Assembly: GCA_934230115.1 (NCBI GenBank)
Contig: CAKQEI010000001.1
Coordinates: forward strand, 45,223-109,222
Length of the DNA stretch: 64,000 nucleotides
Direction: 5' to 3'
Origin: an uncultured Prevotella sp.
Lineage (GTDB): Bacteria; Bacteroidota; Bacteroidia; Bacteroidales; Bacteroidaceae
In this document: piece after piece, positions 39,177 through 47,026 of the stretch
Layout of the letters: every line of letters starts with the position of its first letter
Position numbering within the stretch: the first letter of the stretch is position 1
The notes under the pieces: model-generated
The model's input: the letters and a program-made list of their open reading frames with translations, nothing else
Told to the model about the DNA's origin: nothing
Database searches by the model: none
Made by a program: the position numbers and the translations under genes

Positions 39177-39917
39177 CTAAAAACGGTTCTTCTCCTCATT
39201 ACCTGCACCAGTACCCTTGTACTTGCTGTTGACCGAATTGAAACGATAGCTTACTGTCAGCTTGACAGCTTGTGAGTCGCTATAGTTCCACTTGTCGAGC
39301 AACATGCTTGTGCCATAGGCGAACACTGAATTGCGGGCTGTACGGAATACATCCGTTGCCTGCAACTGGAAAGTCCATTGCTTCAGTTTCTTTGTGATTC
39401 CCAAATTCAACTGATAACTCGGTTTCAATGTTACTATTGTATTATCACCATACGTATGCCCCGTGATGTCAGCCGTCAGTATATAGTCTTCCGAAATGGA
39501 GAAAGAGTTATACCAATTGGTCATCAACAACGGATTGTTCAACTTGAGCGTTTCGCCATTATGAACCATATCGAAGTCATGCCCCATCAACACCAACGAC
39601 AAGCGAGGTGCCCACAACCCGACTCTTGGTGTCAACGATACATTGGCAAAGTCTATTGGGCGTTGATGCGCATCCACAATGCGCCCAATCATCTTGCCAG
39701 ACGTCTTCTGCGTGCATTCCACAAAGATATTCTCGCCATCTACAGTCATCTTTATAGGATAAAAACCTATGATTTGATGTATGGCATCAGGAGCTGTCCG
39801 CCTCACCACATCCTTCGCTGCATCATTGTCATGTAGCAAGGCAAAGGCCAAGCGATACATCCGTTCGTAATGGTCGTGAAACAGCTGTTCCATCTGCTGT
39901 TCATTTTCTTCAGTCAT
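39177..39917 (-). pseudogene. In-frame chimera of ECF sigma N-terminus, STN/plug-side fragment and TonB-receptor barrel end
   Basis: The open frame of 246 codons joins three pieces. Residues 1-38 match the start of an ECF sigma factor (EQLFHDHYERMYRLAFALL, ending AAKDVV; compare the intact sigma at 46.9 kb). Residues 39-93 match the STN end and CarboxypepD-like start of the receptor (APDAIHQIIGFYPIKM, FVECTQK, GRIVDA; compare 45.5 kb). The rest matches its last two hundred residues, ending YKGTGAGNEEKNRF. So a sigma gene, its anti-sigma gene and most of a receptor gene were deleted in one locus, yet the frame stayed open. The product would lack a signal peptide. I expect it to be non-functional; possible residual sigma activity is unlikely. 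Confidence 0.8.
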
Positions 39918-40040: not shown

Positions 40041-41492
40041 TCAAAACAAGTCGTTTCCTGTTACCTGTCTGTTTATCTTTCTTGCATACATATTATTATA
40101 TAGTCCATGTGGCGTTACGAACGTAGGAATAAGCGTCTTGGTTGTTTTCGTCACTTTCTTGAAGACCTTCAAACGGTGTGCAAGATGTGAGTCGTATGCC
40201 TTGCTGATTTCATATTCTCCATTGCAATACTTCATTTCGCAGATAGAGATAGACCTGTCTGAACGGTCTATAAGTAAGTCTATTTGCGTTCCATGTTTCA
40301 AGTCTTCGTCAGCCTCATCGTTTGCCAAGACTTTAGTGGCAGGACGATACGACCATGAACAAGGAGTGTTTATGCTGCCGTCTATACCCAGAGCCTTGAC
40401 TATTTCGTTGATGTGGTGAAGACATACTATTTCGAAGGCGTGCCCGCACCATGATTCATATTCTGCAGTGGTTTGCATCTTTATCCAATGGTTGTCGAGG
40501 AAAGCCCCTTTGTTATGCATAAACTTGAAATAAAACAGGCAGAATGGATCTATCAGCTGATACATCATGTCTTTCTTCGACTTACCAAATGGGGTGTAAC
40601 TGCGAATGAAATCACATTGCTCAAGTTCCTTGAGTATTTGACTGAACCTGCCGTTGTTTGCCAATCCCGTAGCATCAAGCAGGTCCAGGCGGGTCATGCC
40701 TTTGCCCTTGTTCTTCAGGGCTGTGACAATAGCAAGGTGGTTGTCGGCTTTCTTGAAGAGCGAATTGAACAGGCGCTCGAACTCTTCGGTTAGTTCTCCG
40801 CCACGTGTGAAGCAGAGTTGCTGGATATTTTGCGCTACGCTTTTGTTGTTTTCGAAAAGAGACAAGTAATAAGCCACACCGCCCATTGCCATATAACATT
40901 CAATGATTTCGGGGCGCTCATAATAGAATCCTTGTGATTTGAAATACTCTTCTACCTCATGTAGCTTGAATGGAGAGAGTAGTATGTTGTGGGTGATGCG
41001 ATTATGTAGTCCCCCACGTGAATTGATAACCTGGTTGAGCATCCAAGTGGTGGCACTTCCGCAAGCAATCAATTTGATATCACTACGGTAGAAAGCCCAG
41101 TCGTTCCAGAAGTGTTCAAGGGCACTGATAAAGTTGGAGGCATAAGTGTCGAACCAAGGGAGTTCATCGAAGAAGATGATTTTTGTTCCGTCTGTCATCT
41201 TTTCCAACGCTTTCTGAAGAAGTCGGAAGGCTTCTGGCCAATTGGTAACATCTGTCTCTATGCCTAACTGGTCATTAAGTGCGAAGCTGAAACTTGTAAG
41301 CTGTTCCTTAGTTGTGACATTATCCTTTCCCGTGACGCGAAATGCAAATCGGTTTTCAAATAGTTCTTTTACAAGAAAGGTCTTGCCTACACGACGTCTG
41401 CCATAAATCGCGATAAATTCAGATTTGCGGCTTGAAATATAGTTCTCAAGCTTTTCTATCTCTTGTTCTCTGCCTATAATATTCTCTTTCAT
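40041..41492 (-). CDS. AAA ATPase with DUF234-like nuclease-fold C-terminus
   Basis: The 483-residue protein has an AAA/ATPase_2-type domain: Walker A GRRRVGKT (31-38), Walker B IIFFDE (105-110) and the sensor ACGSATTWM. A winged-helix-like region follows (about 270-320). The C-terminal DUF234-type region carries a PD-(D/E)xK-like arrangement with Asp405, Glu419 and Lys421 (QIDLLIDRSDRSISICEMKY). Such ATPases are common and variably present in Bacteroidetes and archaea; their role is undetermined and association with genome-mobile or defence loci is often inferred. It lies alone between receptor fragments and carries an inverted repeat over its promoter. Confidence 0.8.
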   Translation of the reverse strand: MKENIIGREQEIEKLENYISSRKSEFIAIYGRRRVGKTFLVKELFENRFAFRVTGKDNVTTKEQLTSFSFALNDQLGIETDVTNWPEAFRLLQKALEKMTDGTKIIFFDELPWFDTYASNFISALEHFWNDWAFYRSDIKLIACGSATTWMLNQVINSRGGLHNRITHNILLSPFKLHEVEEYFKSQGFYYERPEIIECYMAMGGVAYYLSLFENNKSVAQNIQQLCFTRGGELTEEFERLFNSLFKKADNHLAIVTALKNKGKGMTRLDLLDATGLANNGRFSQILKELEQCDFIRSYTPFGKSKKDMMYQLIDPFCLFYFKFMHNKGAFLDNHWIKMQTTAEYESWCGHAFEIVCLHHINEIVKALGIDGSINTPCSWSYRPATKVLANDEADEDLKHGTQIDLLIDRSDRSISICEMKYCNGEYEISKAYDSHLAHRLKVFKKVTKTTKTLIPTFVTPHGLYNNMYARKINRQVTGNDLF

Positions 41493-41520
41493 ATCTATCT
41501 CATATTAGTGGGACATGTCG

Positions 41521-41552
41521 CAAAGTTACAAAAAAAACGAGATTACGACAAC
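41521..41552 (-). promoter_or_regulatory. Putative promoter for the ATPase gene
   Basis: On the minus strand: GTTG (41552-41549), 20 bases, TAACTTTG (41528-41521). The -33 differs from TTTG at one base. The left arm of a 14-bp inverted repeat (41537-41550) lies across the spacer and the -33 box. Confidence 0.5.
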
Positions 41553-41604
41553 TTTCAAACGAAGAACCTGTCGTAATCTCGTCTTTTTATTGAGATTACG
41601 ACAG
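41537..41604. repeat. Three-arm inverted repeat overlapping the ATPase promoter
   Basis: ACGAGATTACGACA (41537-41550), its reverse complement TGTCGTAATCTCGT (41569-41582), and GAGATTACGACAG again (41592-41604). The middle arm can pair with either neighbour, so two alternative hairpins are possible. The T-rich stretch after the middle arm would make the first hairpin terminator-like on the plus strand. Confidence 0.7.
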
Positions 41605-41941: not shown

Positions 41942-41963
41942 CAAAGGAACATTATCATAAAAA

Positions 41964-42085
41964 CTCTCCTTTGCCGTCTTGAAGATGTCGTCTGAAGAAA
42001 GCTAAATTATCTATATGCGGTTGGCAAACGACTTGTCAAACCGCACATAGACGCTGTAATAGCCCTTCATCATAAGAAATCTATC
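41964..42085 (-). pseudogene. Duplicated 120-base fragment of the TonB receptor gene
   Basis: It matches 43342-43463, inside the receptor gene, with about 11 differences over 120 bases counted by eye. In the receptor frame, the Trp codon of the NRTWIIYLSADDIF segment becomes TAG and the following Tyr codon becomes TAG, so it cannot encode that part. It is oriented like the parent. Confidence 0.8.
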
Positions 42086-42173
42086 ATCATTTCTATTATT
42101 TTTTTTATAAAACCAACAAATATCCAAATAAAAATATTATCTTTACAAAAAGATTCATAAACAGTTATTAGAT

Positions 42174-42398
42174 ATGGCATATAATATTAGCGACAAATTA
42201 GATTGGATGCTGATTTTCATCTTTGAGTTCGGGCGAAAGCATGAACTGACGATGAAACAAGCTTTCAATTATCTCTATCGTTACCAAGGAATGGATTTCT
42301 TGGACAAACACTACGACTATGCCCATACTCAATCATTCAGATCAATGGTTGATGACATAACGGATTATTGCCATAGGAAAGGAGGGGGGTTGCAATGA
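42174..42398 (+). CDS. DUF3791-type small protein (first of DUF3791-DUF3990-DUF3791 module)
   Basis: The 74-residue protein is helical and matches the DUF3791 pattern: NISDKLDWMLIFIFEFGRKH, then LTMKQAFNYLYRYQGMDFLDKHYDYAHTQS and a short acidic VDDITDYC segment. Function is unknown. It overlaps the next gene by ATGA. The stretch is clearly more AT-rich than surrounding genes, which suggests transfer. A TATCTTTA box at 42138 is a weak promoter candidate. Confidence 0.75.
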   Translation: MAYNISDKLDWMLIFIFEFGRKHELTMKQAFNYLYRYQGMDFLDKHYDYAHTQSFRSMVDDITDYCHRKGGGLQ

Positions 42399-42868
42399 AA
42401 CTATATCATGGAACCAACACCGACTTTAACCATATAGATATTGATAAATCTAAACCAAACAAAGATTTTGGTCGTGGTTTCTATCTTTCTGCCGATTATA
42501 AACAAGCCCAAAATATGGCAAACATCAAGTTTGAACAATTGGGAACAGGCACTCCTCTTGTCCAGGAATATTTTGTTGATGAGAAAGATATACAAAAACT
42601 CAAATGCTTGATGTTCGATGACTATACAGAAGAATGGGCTAAGTTTATTTTATTAAATAGGAACAACCCCTTAACAACTCCTGCCCATGATTATGATATT
42701 GTCATTGGACCTATCGCAAATGACAAAGTAGGTGTCCAACTTTGGAAATATGAAAGTCAACTTATAGACCTACCAACATTAATAAAGCGGCTAAAATATA
42801 TGAAGGGGATAACCATTCAATATTTCTTTGGAACTGAACGTGCTATTAAACTATTGAAAAGGATATGA
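42395..42868 (+). CDS. DUF3990-type protein, ADP-ribosyltransferase-like
   Basis: The 157-residue protein begins KLYHGTNTDFNHID and continues DFGRGFYLSADYKQA (residues 24-38). The HGT plus GxGFYL pairing, with His5 and Tyr30, is the signature of the H-Y branch of the ADP-ribosyltransferase fold. The third catalytic residue cannot be assigned securely; Glu/Gln in VQEYFVDE or in the C-terminal half is possible. I recognise the family as DUF3990. The likely role is modification of a nucleic acid or protein with ADP-ribose, for example as the toxin of a toxin-antitoxin-like unit. A strong Shine-Dalgarno-like AGGAGGGGGG sits just before it, unusual for Bacteroidetes. Coupled by 4-base overlaps to both neighbours. 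Confidence 0.8.
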   Translation: MKLYHGTNTDFNHIDIDKSKPNKDFGRGFYLSADYKQAQNMANIKFEQLGTGTPLVQEYFVDEKDIQKLKCLMFDDYTEEWAKFILLNRNNPLTTPAHDYDIVIGPIANDKVGVQLWKYESQLIDLPTLIKRLKYMKGITIQYFFGTERAIKLLKRI

Positions 42869-43086
42869 ACGAAATAAGTGAAATGAAAGCAGATATGGTT
42901 AAGAACTTAGCTATCCTGCTGATGAACCAAAATAAAGACATGGGGATGAATGAAGCACTTGCTATCGTTTTTAATTCTGATACTTACCAAAAGGTAATGG
43001 ACGATAAAGCAGGCTTATATTATCAAAGTCCAAGATACGTCTTTTCTTTCTTAGACAACGAGATTAGGAACGGAAAAATTTACTAA
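42865..43086 (+). CDS. DUF3791-type small protein (third gene of the module)
   Basis: The 73-residue protein is similar in length and layout to the first gene: MKADMVKNLAILLMNQNKDMGMNEALAIVFNSDTYQKVMDD, in pieces, then SPRYVFSFLDNEIRNGK. Both small proteins share the helical hydrophobic start, a conserved middle Met/Ala segment and a Tyr-rich end, yet differ clearly in sequence. It overlaps the DUF3990 gene by ATGA and is followed by a terminator-like hairpin. It may be an antitoxin or a scaffold partner. Confidence 0.7.
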   Translation: MNEISEMKADMVKNLAILLMNQNKDMGMNEALAIVFNSDTYQKVMDDKAGLYYQSPRYVFSFLDNEIRNGKIY

Positions 43087-43190: not shown

Positions 43191-45773
43191 CTACAAGCGG
43201 CTCTTCTCCTCATTGCCGGCTCCCGTACCCTTATACTTACTGCGCTTGGTATTGAAATTGTACGTAATCTGCAAGGAGATGTTGCGAGTGTAGTTGTAGC
43301 AGTCTTTTATAGTACCCGCCCCAAGTCCATACATCGTCCAACGCTCCTTTGCCGTCTTGAAGATGTCATCTGCAGAAAGATAAATTATCCATGTGCGGTT
43401 GGCAAACGACTTGTCAAACTGCAGATTGACGCTGTAATCGCTCTTCATCATAAGAAATCCATCTGCATGGGTTGTTGAGGCATTAAGCCAGATTGCCGCG
43501 TTCATGGTTTCTGAAAGAGCGAAATTATTGTTGAGCGAGCACGACAGCAAAGGTTTGCTTAATGCCTTGCTGGCACCATACTTCTTGGTATCGAAGAACT
43601 GCTGGTTGTAGTTGAATCCCCACGTAGGACGGAAGATGCCGAACTTTGGCGAAACATGGACAGAAGCATAAAGCAACTGCTTATGGTCGAAATTCAACGA
43701 CGTGTTATAAGCAAACTCCTTTCCAGGATAGATATACTTGGTCCATTCCATCACATTCTTCAGATATTTATAGCCTACAGATACATTCAGCCACTTATAT
43801 ATCATCATTGCCTCAACATTGAGCACCTTCTCCGGTTGCAATGTAGGATTTCCACCTTCATACAAGAAACGGTTGTCAAACTGCATGAAGTTGCCCAACT
43901 GTCGATAGCTTGGACGGTGTATCTTCTCGTTGACATTCAGTTGCCAAAACCAGTTGCCTTTGTTCCATGATATGCTGAGGTTAGGGAATAGGTTGCTGTA
44001 TCTTTTGCTCACATCATCCTGCTTAACTCCACCAGAGAAATAGTCGCGAATGATATTCTCGTAACGCATACCAAGACCAATGGTCCACTTGCTGAGGGGC
44101 AGTTCATATTGCGCAAAGCTAGCAACATTTCTTTCGTGGATATCCGTTTCTGTGGATGGCACCAACTGCTCTTCATTCAGAAACGTTCCATGTGAGTCGG
44201 TCTTCGACAGCTCTGTTCCTACAGACATATTTCCTTTCCACAAAGGAATTTTCACAACCAACTTTCCTGCCCACATATCGCTATTCTGACGATTGCTTGA
44301 GTGTACCTCCTGATTGCCCAACTCCTTGCTGCTTTCAATACTCTCGTCACTACGTCTGTCATTAACCGTATAGTATGTGGCGTTGAAATCGATGCCTACC
44401 TGTCTTATCTTTCCCACATAATAGATTTCTGCCTCATGTGAACCAAGGTGAGGCTTTGCAGCCTCATTCTGCTCAATGCTGCCCTGTGCCACACCGTTCA
44501 GAAATACATCCTGTTGGCTACTACCTTTCGTCCTGCCATTCAACATTCCATAGTAGTGATAAGAGCCACCAATGGAATTGCTGTCGTTGAGTGAATAGTC
44601 GGCTGAGAGATATTCCGACAAGAAGCGGTGTTTGGTATCCGAATTAGAATGCTGGTCGTTGTGATAATGCTTGTCAGGCAAATTGATATCTGTGTTCAGG
44701 TGATTATCCTCACCAATATGATACCTCTTCGTCCATATACTATTGGCTATCTCGAATTTCTTGGTCTGATATCTGGCGCTGATAAGCTCGTAATCCGACA
44801 TCCATTTGTTGTATTTACCAAAAGCATCCGCGCGTAAGCTGAACCCATTTGCACGGCGCTCTTTGGTGCGGATACGAATTACCGACTCCACCTCCGCATC
44901 ATATTCTGCACCAGGACTTGTTATCACCGAAATTGACTTGATATTATTGGGAGTGATGTTTACAATCTCATTATTGTCATTCACACGCTTGTTGTTGATA
45001 TAAACAATTGGTGTGCCTTTACCAAACACGGATATCTTTTGTCCATTAACAGAGACACGTGGCAACAGATTTAGGACATCAAAAGTGTTTGCCATTTTAG
45101 AGAGTAATGTGTGCTCTACAGCAACTTCCATTCCTCCAGACAACATCTTATACTGAGGTCTGTCACCCTTCACCACAACGCCTTTGACAATCATGGTTTT
45201 GGGTTGCAGTTTGATGATGCCCATCTCTGTGTTGTTGTATATGCGGTTGACAGTCTTATAGCCAATGTATGTGATACGTGCCAACACTTTTCGGGAATTG
45301 CAAGGAATTACAAAACTGCCATTCTCATTGCTCACTCCATGACCTACGATTGTGGAGTCAATGGGCGACAGCAAGGCTATTGTTGCGTATTCAGCGGCAT
45401 TGCCTCTCTCGTCAACAATACGTCCCTTATAACGAAATGTTGACTTCTGTGTGCATTCCACCATAATATTATTCTCCACCTGCGTCATCCTGATAGGATA
45501 GAAGCCTATCAACTGCATAATGGCATTAGGAACATTCTGGTTGCGGATGCTCTTGGTCACCTTAAAGTCCTCCAACTCATCATACACAAAGTTGATGGTG
45601 TACTTATGCTGACGTGCATTCAAGTCCTTCAATGCCTCAGAGAACGACACATTATTATATTGTCGGGTGATGCGTTGGGCGTAAGAATGCTGAGCCAAAA
45701 TCAGCAGGAAGAAGAGAAGGAACAGGCTGATGGTCTTGCTGTTATTGGGTGTAGTCTTAAATATGTTTTTCAT
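43191..45773 (-). CDS. TonB-dependent outer-membrane receptor with STN domain, paired with an ECF sigma factor
   Basis: The 860-residue protein has a signal peptide (cleavage likely after HSYA, about residue 32), then an STN-type domain (ITRQYNNVSFSEALKDLNAR to IMVECTQK, about 35-110), a CarboxypepD-regulatory-like domain (YKGRIVDERGNAAEYATIAL), a plug with a short NVLNLLPRVSVNGQKISVFG stretch, and a barrel of roughly 550 residues (OMP_b-brl_3-like). It ends YKGTGAGNEEKSRL. STN domains signal to a cognate anti-sigma factor in the periplasm; here the two genes upstream encode the anti-sigma and ECF sigma, so transport and gene activation are likely linked. Ligand unknown. Confidence 0.9.
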   Translation of the reverse strand: MKNIFKTTPNNSKTISLFLLFFLLILAQHSYAQRITRQYNNVSFSEALKDLNARQHKYTINFVYDELEDFKVTKSIRNQNVPNAIMQLIGFYPIRMTQVENNIMVECTQKSTFRYKGRIVDERGNAAEYATIALLSPIDSTIVGHGVSNENGSFVIPCNSRKVLARITYIGYKTVNRIYNNTEMGIIKLQPKTMIVKGVVVKGDRPQYKMLSGGMEVAVEHTLLSKMANTFDVLNLLPRVSVNGQKISVFGKGTPIVYINNKRVNDNNEIVNITPNNIKSISVITSPGAEYDAEVESVIRIRTKERRANGFSLRADAFGKYNKWMSDYELISARYQTKKFEIANSIWTKRYHIGEDNHLNTDINLPDKHYHNDQHSNSDTKHRFLSEYLSADYSLNDSNSIGGSYHYYGMLNGRTKGSSQQDVFLNGVAQGSIEQNEAAKPHLGSHEAEIYYVGKIRQVGIDFNATYYTVNDRRSDESIESSKELGNQEVHSSNRQNSDMWAGKLVVKIPLWKGNMSVGTELSKTDSHGTFLNEEQLVPSTETDIHERNVASFAQYELPLSKWTIGLGMRYENIIRDYFSGGVKQDDVSKRYSNLFPNLSISWNKGNWFWQLNVNEKIHRPSYRQLGNFMQFDNRFLYEGGNPTLQPEKVLNVEAMMIYKWLNVSVGYKYLKNVMEWTKYIYPGKEFAYNTSLNFDHKQLLYASVHVSPKFGIFRPTWGFNYNQQFFDTKKYGASKALSKPLLSCSLNNNFALSETMNAAIWLNASTTHADGFLMMKSDYSVNLQFDKSFANRTWIIYLSADDIFKTAKERWTMYGLGAGTIKDCYNYTRNISLQITYNFNTKRSKYKGTGAGNEEKSRL

Positions 45774-45789: not shown

Positions 45790-46452
45790 TTATTTCACTA
45801 TTAATATTCCTTCGACGTATTCTATCTGTATGCGGTCGAAAGCATTCAATAGCTCCAGATTTTGCTCCAAGGTCTTCGTCTTGTTCCAATTGAAGAAGAG
45901 GCGCACGTGCTGTGTGTTGGCATTCATATACTCCACCTTGACGTGATAGAAGTCTGCCATCTGCATAAGAATGGTTCCTAACTCAGCATTGTCAAACACC
46001 ACTGGCTTCATGTCGAGCGAATCCGTTGGCTCTACAGTCATAGCTTTAATACTGTCGTTGGCTAATGTATTTGATGGGACAATCTGTTCAGTCATAACCT
46101 TGTTATCTACGACTTTGTCTGAAGTTGAAAAGTTTAACCAACCGTTCTGCACAGCAGCCAAGGCCACACCCGAAAGAAAGATGATGCCAACGATGGATGC
46201 TGCAATCTTCATTCGGTTGCGATAAGAACCATTAGAAAACTCCTTCCATGCCTTATCCACGTCAACCTTTTTTGGCGTGGCTTTCTTGCCAGCCATTCTT
46301 GCCATAGCCAAGTCGCGTAGAAACTCCTTTACTTCCTCATCGGCAAGCAAGTGTTCTATTTGCTCGTCGGTATATTTCTCGGGATGCTCCTGCATGTCAA
46401 AGAGCATCAGCCGTTTTTCGTCTTTGTTCATGTTAGTCATTGTTTTGCTCAT
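45790..46452 (-). CDS. Anti-sigma factor, FecR-like, single-pass membrane protein
   Basis: The 220-residue protein has a cytoplasmic N-terminal half (DEKRLMLFDMQEHPEKYTD), one membrane helix (about 84-100, AASIVGIIFLSGVALAA), and a periplasmic C-terminal part with the DUF4974-type sequence (VVFDNAELGTILMQMADFYHVKVEY, then FNWNKTKTLEQNLELLNAF). It corresponds to the regulator between the ECF sigma and the TonB receptor, binding the sigma factor until the receptor's STN domain signals. Its start overlaps the sigma stop by ATGA. Confidence 0.85.
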   Translation of the reverse strand: MSKTMTNMNKDEKRLMLFDMQEHPEKYTDEQIEHLLADEEVKEFLRDLAMARMAGKKATPKKVDVDKAWKEFSNGSYRNRMKIAASIVGIIFLSGVALAAVQNGWLNFSTSDKVVDNKVMTEQIVPSNTLANDSIKAMTVEPTDSLDMKPVVFDNAELGTILMQMADFYHVKVEYMNANTQHVRLFFNWNKTKTLEQNLELLNAFDRIQIEYVEGILIVK

Positions 46453-46928
46453 TTTATATGTTCCTTAATCCAGTCCATCGCCTTAGAGAGATGGTTGAAC
46501 ACCGTCACCTTGCTCACTCCCACTTCATCAGCCACCTCCCGATACGACTTGTCTTGCAGATAGCGCAGACGGAAGATAAGCTTACGGATGGGAGGTTCAA
46601 GGTCATCGATGAGAAGCAATAGCTGTTCAAGACGTTCGTCGGTATCTTCCGAGAGAATCACGTCGGCATCATCAGTCAACAGTCTCGCCACCCTTTCCTT
46701 CACGCTCTTGTGAGCAATCAGATTAAGACAGCGGTTGCGTACGCTCCTTATCAAATAGCCTTCCTCGCTCTCAGGCAATAGGACCATATCATCTGCAAGA
46801 ATCTGTGTGAACACTTCGCTCACCACATCCTTGCTTTCGTCGTCATCCGAGAGGATATATCTGGCCAGATTGTACATCTTCTCATAATGCCGCCGAAACA
46901 TCTGTTCTATGTCCTTTTCCTGTGTCAT
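46449..46928 (-). CDS. ECF RNA polymerase sigma factor
   Basis: The chosen start (MTQEKDIEQMFRRHYEKMY) gives 159 residues; a longer frame has a hydrophobic extension with no function. Region 2 covers HYEKMYNLARYILSDDDESKDVVSEVFTQI. Region 4 is recognisable in DLEPPIRKLIFRLRYLQDKSYREVADEVGVSKVTVFNHLSKAMD, given in pieces, a DNA-binding helix-turn-helix. It is transcribed before the anti-sigma and receptor genes. The first 38 residues of the chimeric frame at 39.9 kb are a homologue. Confidence 0.92.
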   Translation of the reverse strand: MTQEKDIEQMFRRHYEKMYNLARYILSDDDESKDVVSEVFTQILADDMVLLPESEEGYLIRSVRNRCLNLIAHKSVKERVARLLTDDADVILSEDTDERLEQLLLLIDDLEPPIRKLIFRLRYLQDKSYREVADEVGVSKVTVFNHLSKAMDWIKEHIK

Positions 46929-46984
46929 ATATCCTATATACAGTTGAGCAAAGCAAAAAACTAAGCGAAACAGTGATTTTTTGA

Positions 46985-47026
46985 ATAAAAAAATGCAAAC
47001 GCCTAAATTCATAGGTGTTTGCATTT
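46985..47026 (-). terminator. Rho-independent terminator after the MaoC gene
   Basis: AAATGCAAACGCCTA pairs with TAGGTGTTTGCATTT (one G-T or mismatch step). On the minus strand it is followed by a run of T. It separates the ndk-maoC unit from the ECF sigma operon. Confidence 0.8.

Follow-up and report, generated by a model that had tools for sequence, protein, structure and literature searches.

Among the systems described so far, the one closest to the locus presented here is PDC-M13, a candidate phage defense system in PADLOC-DB 2.0.0. The locus lies in a stretch of 64,000 nucleotides (nt) from an uncultured Prevotella sp. (GenBank assembly GCA_934230115.1, contig CAKQEI010000001.1, positions 45,223 to 109,222), which was analyzed as a whole and is called the window below. 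It is a module of three adjacent genes, numbered 1 to 3, whose products match the PDC-M13 models with 66.5, 154.7, and 48.7 bits; gene 2 encodes a DUF3990 protein, and genes 1 and 3 encode small proteins on either side of it. However, PDC-M13 has been catalogued only as a candidate, and the available text of the one paper found that names it, which gives counts of it, describes no Shine-Dalgarno (SD) sequence, catalytic triad, shared partner fold, or fusions. A literature search on DUF3990, DUF3791, and PDC-M13, which covered work other than preprints, returned no functional study in the text available. We suggest that the module is probably a tripartite toxin-antitoxin unit, in which gene 2 encodes an NAD+-consuming toxin and the products of genes 1 and 3 would bind both the toxin and one another. 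The module itself has a catalog entry; what looks new, judging from aligned relatives, is the SD sequence conserved at the codon level at the start of the enzyme gene. The layout, the co-inheritance, the predicted fold of a homolog, the invariant triad, the fusions and permutations, and the SD conservation were all established by comparison.

The module was also compared with other systems. DarTG is defined by a macrodomain antitoxin, and no macrodomain was found in the Pfam scan of the three module proteins. The toxins of ParST and Xre-RES have the nearest solved folds to a homolog of the DUF3990 enzyme. Structure titles (9r35 and 6gw6) name an Xre-type antitoxin, whereas the module has two small partners with a DUF3791-like predicted fold. 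No Xre-type antitoxin was found among the three module proteins; the Pfam scan gave DUF3791 for gene 1, DUF3990 with a weak ART-PolyVal match for gene 2, and no family for gene 3. A helix-turn-helix (HTH) domain was seen only in some relatives, namely the proteins of locus L184 (HTH_3) and the near-identical L185, and P0276, in which HTH_3 is joined to the N-terminus of the DUF3990 enzyme. CmdTAC is also a three-gene unit with an ADP-ribosyltransferase toxin, but its third part is, in the available description, a SecB-like chaperone, whereas the module partners have 73 to 74 amino acids (aa) and are predicted to be all-helical. SecB was absent from the Pfam scan of the three module proteins. 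Bxa-Bsi-BAH from Bacteroides stercoris likewise combines a Bacteroidales ADP-ribosyltransferase with two protective partners, but one of them, according to the accessible part of its report, is an enzyme that removes the modification, and cells release the toxin, unlike a module with small helical partners.

The features of the module, which the first-pass annotation had already read as three plus-strand genes overlapping by ATGA at each junction, are as follows.

42174..42398, plus strand: gene 1, DUF3791 small helical protein, 74 aa (PF12668, 77.3 bits; PDLC04435, 66.5 bits), proposed antitoxin subunit
42379..42385, plus strand: AAGGAGG SD motif (AGGAGG at 42380-42385) in gene 1 codons AAA-GGA-GGG, with a 9-nt spacing to the gene 2 ATG and a predicted anti-SD pairing of -14.9 kcal/mol
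42395..42398, plus strand: ATGA overlap of the gene 1 stop and the gene 2 start, from the reading of the open reading frames (ORFs)
42395..42868, plus strand: gene 2, DUF3990 protein with a likely ADP-ribosyltransferase fold, 157 aa (PF13151, 148.7 bits; PDLC04438, 154.7 bits), proposed toxin
42407..42409, plus strand: His5 codon, first catalytic-motif position (H in 166/166)
42482..42484, plus strand: Tyr30 codon, second catalytic-motif position (Y in 166/166)
42818..42820, plus strand: Gln142 codon (CAA), candidate third catalytic-motif position (Q in 166/166)
42865..42868, plus strand: ATGA overlap of the gene 2 stop and the gene 3 start, from the ORF reading, without an SD motif
42865..43086, plus strand: gene 3, small helical protein, 73 aa (PDLC04444, 48.7 bits), proposed second antitoxin or stabilizing subunit

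Gene 2 matched PF13151 (DUF3990) far above the cut-off of 32.2 bits in the Pfam scan and fell below threshold for the ADP-ribosyltransferase family PF18760 (the weak ART-PolyVal match; 26.4 bits, cut-off 31.2). DUF3990 itself is assigned by Pfam to the ADP-ribosyltransferase (ART) clan, according to the available text of the description (PMC7955679). It had been claimed that the central protein carries the HGT and GRGFYL motifs of this fold, and we found YHGT with His5 and GRGFY with Tyr30, both residues being invariant. Gln142 is our candidate for the third triad position because of its place in TIQYFFGT, so that the family appears to carry an H-Y-[EQ] type triad of three invariant residues. 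The predicted fold of the homolog P0253, which is 47% identical to the window protein, is ADP-ribosyltransferase-like, as the first-pass annotation had expected, and its nearest solved folds are the ParT and RES toxins. The model suggests that gene 2 likely encodes an ADP-ribosyltransferase-fold protein, for which we propose the role of the toxin.

Two different DUF3791-type proteins had been proposed to flank the enzyme. This holds for gene 1, which exceeds the PF12668 cut-off of 25 bits and is predicted to be all-helical (AlphaFold2 (AF2) pLDDT of 95.6), but not for gene 3, for which the Pfam scan gave no family even at an E-value of 1 and no match to the DUF3791 model. Gene 3 is also predicted to be all-helical, and its helix pattern in a fusion model resembles that predicted for gene 1; the profiles of the two proteins gave a weak colinear match (probability of 43%, P of 2.5e-4; 6% with shallow profiles). 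Judged by the formal family definition, gene 3 is only a distant relative of DUF3791, and the two proteins probably share one fold as ancient paralogs. In P0123 and P0124 (123 aa), two tandem gene 3 domains were recognized by eye. Strongly conserved polar residues are found in both proteins (His51, Thr52, and Cys66 in gene 1; Ser38, Thr40, Tyr41, Gln54, and Ser55 in gene 3). The Gly-Gly near the end of gene 1 (G70 and G71) is conserved at 100%. The set is diverse, since gene 1 proteins are on average 39% identical to one another, pair by pair, in 126 complete triples with the SD motif present or absent. The correlation of divergence is highest between gene 1 and the enzyme (partial r of 0.67 vs 0.35 and 0.40 for the other pairs), which fits direct contact, short of proof.

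The three genes are inherited together. The protein database holds 5302 relatives of gene 2 and, by profile, 1884 of gene 3. Gene 2 relatives are encoded in 222 genome-contig stretches, of which the best 80, chosen by similarity to the window, were kept; with the window they make 81 loci, and 78 could be parsed (L014, L056, and L057 were dropped). Gene 1 lies upstream in 78/78 of these, window included, and a separate gene 3 comes after the enzyme in 76/78. The exceptions are L068 and L069, where gene 3 is within the gene 2 ORF, and this joint ORF looks like the product of a frameshift and a deletion. When the fetched loci and the window were pooled into 167 distinct enzyme ORFs, both partners were beside the enzyme or fused to it in 153, as the first-pass annotation had predicted for a true unit. 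The fusion profile was matched by 54/393 Bacteroidales genomes, partially in some (G327 and G419 match the gene 3 end only). In a thinner sample of the class, PF13151 was found in 5/149 genomes at an E-value of 0.001, four of them above the cut-off. One genome (G004) holds six copies of gene 2, and 68 plasmid records carry relatives of it, 42 of them from Bacteroides. The layout is that of type II toxin-antitoxin units, with adjacent small co-inherited partners, plasmid carriage, and several copies per genome.

The order of the genes is less constant than their company. The order gene 1-ART-gene 3 accounts for 130 of the 167 ORFs. In eight, gene 1 precedes an ORF in which the enzyme and gene 3 are joined, and one more has a second gene 1 behind it; in six, a fused gene 3-gene 1 protein lies upstream of the enzyme, with separate domains visible in the four inspected (L094, L097, L124, and L126). 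The orders gene 3-gene 1-ART and ART-gene 3-gene 1 occur three times and twice, respectively, and three cases are mixed, namely the two tandem modules of L105, and L178, where both profiles match a single ORF. The two modules of L105 differ from each other, and an SD motif precedes the enzyme in one and is absent in the other. The remaining ORFs have gene 3 alone (eight), gene 1 alone (one), or neither partner (five). In PDC-M13, the positions of small and enzyme proteins are mixed among the A, B, and C models, which we read as permuted gene orders. Natural fusions of the enzyme with gene 3 recur in 32 of the 118 proteins scanned (P0286-P0343) and in seven loci of three genomes (L098-L100 and L128-L131), each of which has gene 1 as an upstream gene of its own. 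No intact fusion of gene 1 with the enzyme was seen, the apparent cases being frame-shifted, truncated, or TGA-as-Trp reads. In three loci, within the approximately 2 kb fetched, genes 1 and 3 occur without the enzyme. Two of these (L184:436-1152 and the near-identical L185:874-1689; Pfam was run for L184) encode a single HTH-DUF3791-gene 3 protein, an apparent orphan antitoxin-type regulator, and L187 has the partners as two genes; in L186 the enzyme is broken and the partners are intact. Partner pairs without the enzyme, one of them fused to a DNA-binding domain, are as expected of antitoxins.

Five loci beyond Bacteroidota were inspected. A Clostridiaceae plasmid has the order gene 1-ART-gene 3 and a Moraxella plasmid ART-gene 3-gene 1, with DUF3791 confirmed by Pfam in both; a Lactobacillus plasmid has ART-gene 3, and no partner was recognized beside the enzyme of a Megamonas plasmid or of a Geobacillus phage. 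The neighbors on the Megamonas plasmid gave no Pfam match at the cut-offs. On the conjugative plasmid pBF9343 (L094, 3555-5615), a gene 3-gene 1 fusion, DUF3990, and a small gene are followed by a gene of the zeta toxin family.

The strongest part of the first-pass annotation was its remark that AGGAGG before the middle gene is unusual in this phylum. Among 79 of the 81 similarity-chosen loci (L050 and L056 were dropped since the ATG did not align), an SD match of at least 5 nt precedes gene 2 in 77, window included. The corresponding counts are 6/72 for the start of gene 1, 0/71 for that of gene 3, 6/84 for the remaining ATGA overlaps of these loci, and, in a noisy set, 41/535 for the first ATG of long ORFs. 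The motif is written in the C-terminal Gly-Gly of gene 1, whose codons GGA-GGN set GGAGG ahead of the gene 2 ATG, with a spacing of 9 nt in 86 and 6 nt in 22 of 111 exact motifs. The first glycine is encoded by GGA in 77/79 (76 at the fixed codon position) and by GGG in 2/79, whereas GGA makes up 19.6% of glycine codons in long ORFs of the same loci and has a share of 13-47% where gene 2 carries one of seven conserved glycines. The median predicted pairing with the 16S tail is -11.2 kcal/mol at gene 2 (wider set, n = 140); in the first set, gene 1 has a median of -1.8 (n = 72) and gene 3 one of -0.9 (n = 71). The wider and more diverged set comprises 150 of the 167 rows, the five loci outside Bacteroidota and rows without an adjacent upstream partner being excluded. 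The motif is present in 123/150 of these, in 121/140 where gene 3 is not first and in 2/10 where it is. It also varies with the enzyme motif class (GFYL 104/115, GFYVT 10/15, GFYTT 5/17, and GFYCT 1/7). Because of these counts, we regard the SD motif as a trait of the branch of the window and its nearer relatives rather than of the whole family.

The idea that the layout represents a toxin with two partners is supported by comparison rather than by experiment, and fusions, permuted orders, enzyme-less partner pairs, and plasmid copies all fit a tripartite toxin-antitoxin unit. In such a unit, gene 1 would be translated first; ribosomes finishing it would restart at gene 2 with the aid of the SD motif, and those finishing gene 2 would restart at gene 3 without one. 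The ATGA overlap and the conserved internal SD motif would tie translation of the toxin to gene 1, and the toxin should therefore be produced only when the gene 1 protein is. A complex of the three proteins would hold the enzyme silent. The product of gene 3 probably stays on the toxin and helps to fold or hold it, since it is fused to the toxin in one lineage, and that of gene 1 is probably the removable neutralizer, since it is translated first; the enzyme would be freed once the gene 1 product is removed, either by proteolysis or through a phage trigger.

Several points weigh against this interpretation. Toxicity, binding, the choice of neutralizing partner, trigger, target, and defense are inferred. 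One or both partners are missing from the stretch seen in 14/167 ORFs, some of them cut by contig ends, and the Megamonas plasmid and Geobacillus phage copies are among these. Neutralizers are less usually fused to their enzyme, as gene 3 is in one lineage, and the fused model informs on the fold rather than on the interface. The SD motif is weaker beyond the window's own relatives (51/76 rows from L084 on). No clear defense-island pattern was found among the 82 nearest neighbor ORFs, which represent 41 of 80 loci.

The last point bears on the best explanation if defense is what is selected, namely an anti-phage abortive infection system in which one small partner senses infection and frees the enzyme, as the CmdTAC chaperone does. 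We consider this possible, although the odds are somewhat against it. All three proteins match the PDC-M13 models, but the label is that of a candidate only; PDC-M13 was counted 3324 times in 6530 rumen genomes and metagenome-assembled genomes, according to the accessible part of that survey. The Moraxella osloensis plasmid copy (L093, NZ_CP069435.1, 3998-4925) has DUF3990, the gene 3-like gene, and DUF3791 between the annotated type I restriction subunits M and S, with short overlaps throughout, and so lies inside a restriction operon. However, the top recurrent Pfam families among the 82 neighbors (asparagine synthase with an amidotransferase domain, and MazG with its relatives) occur only four times each, and each of the 25 defense models shown matched one neighbor protein. 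Single defense-type proteins do occur among the neighbors, and defense, addiction, and stress response are indistinguishable here.

Genes 1 and 3 might instead encode subunits or targeting adaptors of a non-toxic ADP-ribosylating regulatory enzyme rather than antitoxins. The recurrent lineage of gene 3-enzyme fusions speaks for such a role, and the conserved polar residues in both small proteins exceed the needs of a plain plug. It is nevertheless unlikely, as the patchy distribution, several copies per genome, plasmid carriage, and enzyme-less partner pairs are toxin-antitoxin-like, and the nearest folds are those of toxins from toxin-antitoxin systems.

The SD motif must be set against what is known of translation in the phylum. 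Bacteroidetes have been reported to use SD sequences for neither initiation nor reinitiation, the share among overlapping pairs being about 10% or less (Huber et al., PMC6728339), and reporter output in Prevotella bryantii was reportedly unchanged by adding or removing an SD sequence (Accetto and Avgustin, PMC3155529). The anti-SD sits in a pocket that bS21 forms with bS18 and bS6, and strong-SD reporters are translated more when bS21 is mutated or depleted; strong SD sequences are found at rpsR of Bacteroidales, and Bacteroidia phages encode bS21 (PMC9976891, in part). Because of the rpsR case, the motif before gene 2 is not unique among Bacteroidales. Its conservation is surprising, since ribosomes of Bacteroidia hide the anti-SD and an SD sequence had no effect in P. 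bryantii. The autoregulation of rpsU by bS21-less ribosomes in Flavobacterium likewise places a strong SD sequence on a selected Bacteroidia gene, but that gene encodes a ribosomal protein, whereas the module motif is internal to an operon and precedes a toxin-like gene in Bacteroidales; by the criteria of that study, no Bacteroidales qualified (PMC9976891). The literature search found nothing that links SD sequences with toxin-antitoxin units of Prevotella, and none of the matches listed on SD sequences, overlapping genes, and translational coupling had Bacteroidales in its counts.

These reports allow a second role for the motif, as an intrinsic detector of altered ribosomes, with the final codons of the antitoxin gene serving as an infection alarm. 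Normal ribosomes, with the anti-SD hidden by bS21, would use the conserved GGAGG poorly; once bS21 is lost or exchanged, in damaged ribosomes or by a phage-encoded bS21, the anti-SD would be exposed, gene 2 would be initiated more often without extra gene 1 product, and free toxin would build up. We rate this as quite improbable. Least credible is that the motif is accidental, gene 1 keeping its Gly-Gly for protein reasons and GGA-GGN resembling an SD sequence by chance: G70 and G71 are indeed invariant, and the motif is still present at the end of five gene 1 ORFs for which no downstream enzyme was detected, four with Gly-Gly (in L186 the enzyme is broken, in L187 there was none to be found, in L132 it extends past the contig, and L099 is close to a contig end; L093, without Gly-Gly, is followed by a restriction gene), but the bias to GGA at the first glycine far exceeds both backgrounds given above, and motif-less gene 1 upstream of the enzyme has Gly-Gly in only 5/32, those five with G-rich near-SD codons.

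The module had also been placed in an AT-rich patch of a rearranged region, and both descriptions proved accurate. Its GC content is 35%, compared with 48% in the window, and it is flanked on one side by an intact copy of an outer-membrane gene and on the other by a remnant, which appears to be a sign of local rearrangement.

41962..42090, no strand given: remnant copy, 129 nt, 89% identical, of the 3' end of the outer-membrane gene (43340-43468), to the left of the module

A gene for an ATPase_2 (PF01637) protein at 40041-41492 adjoins the module within the lower-GC block. Immediately upstream of it, a 35-nt inverted repeat (80%) with GAGATTACGACA-like copies at 41516-41603 is a possible remnant of a small mobile element. 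The ORF at 39177-39917 resembles by eye the sigma factor at 46449-47024 in its start and leads into the final part of an outer-membrane beta-barrel protein; PF14905 was found at residues 102-224 and no sigma domain in the Pfam scan, and it is perhaps a deletion chimera of paralogous loci.

Of the three start codons in the toxin-like operon, one retains an SD sequence. Either SD sequences are used by Bacteroidales at special junctions, or the motif reports the state of the ribosome. If the tripartite toxin-antitoxin model is true, it would explain the label of unknown function on these families as that of one enzyme and two partners that share one fold.
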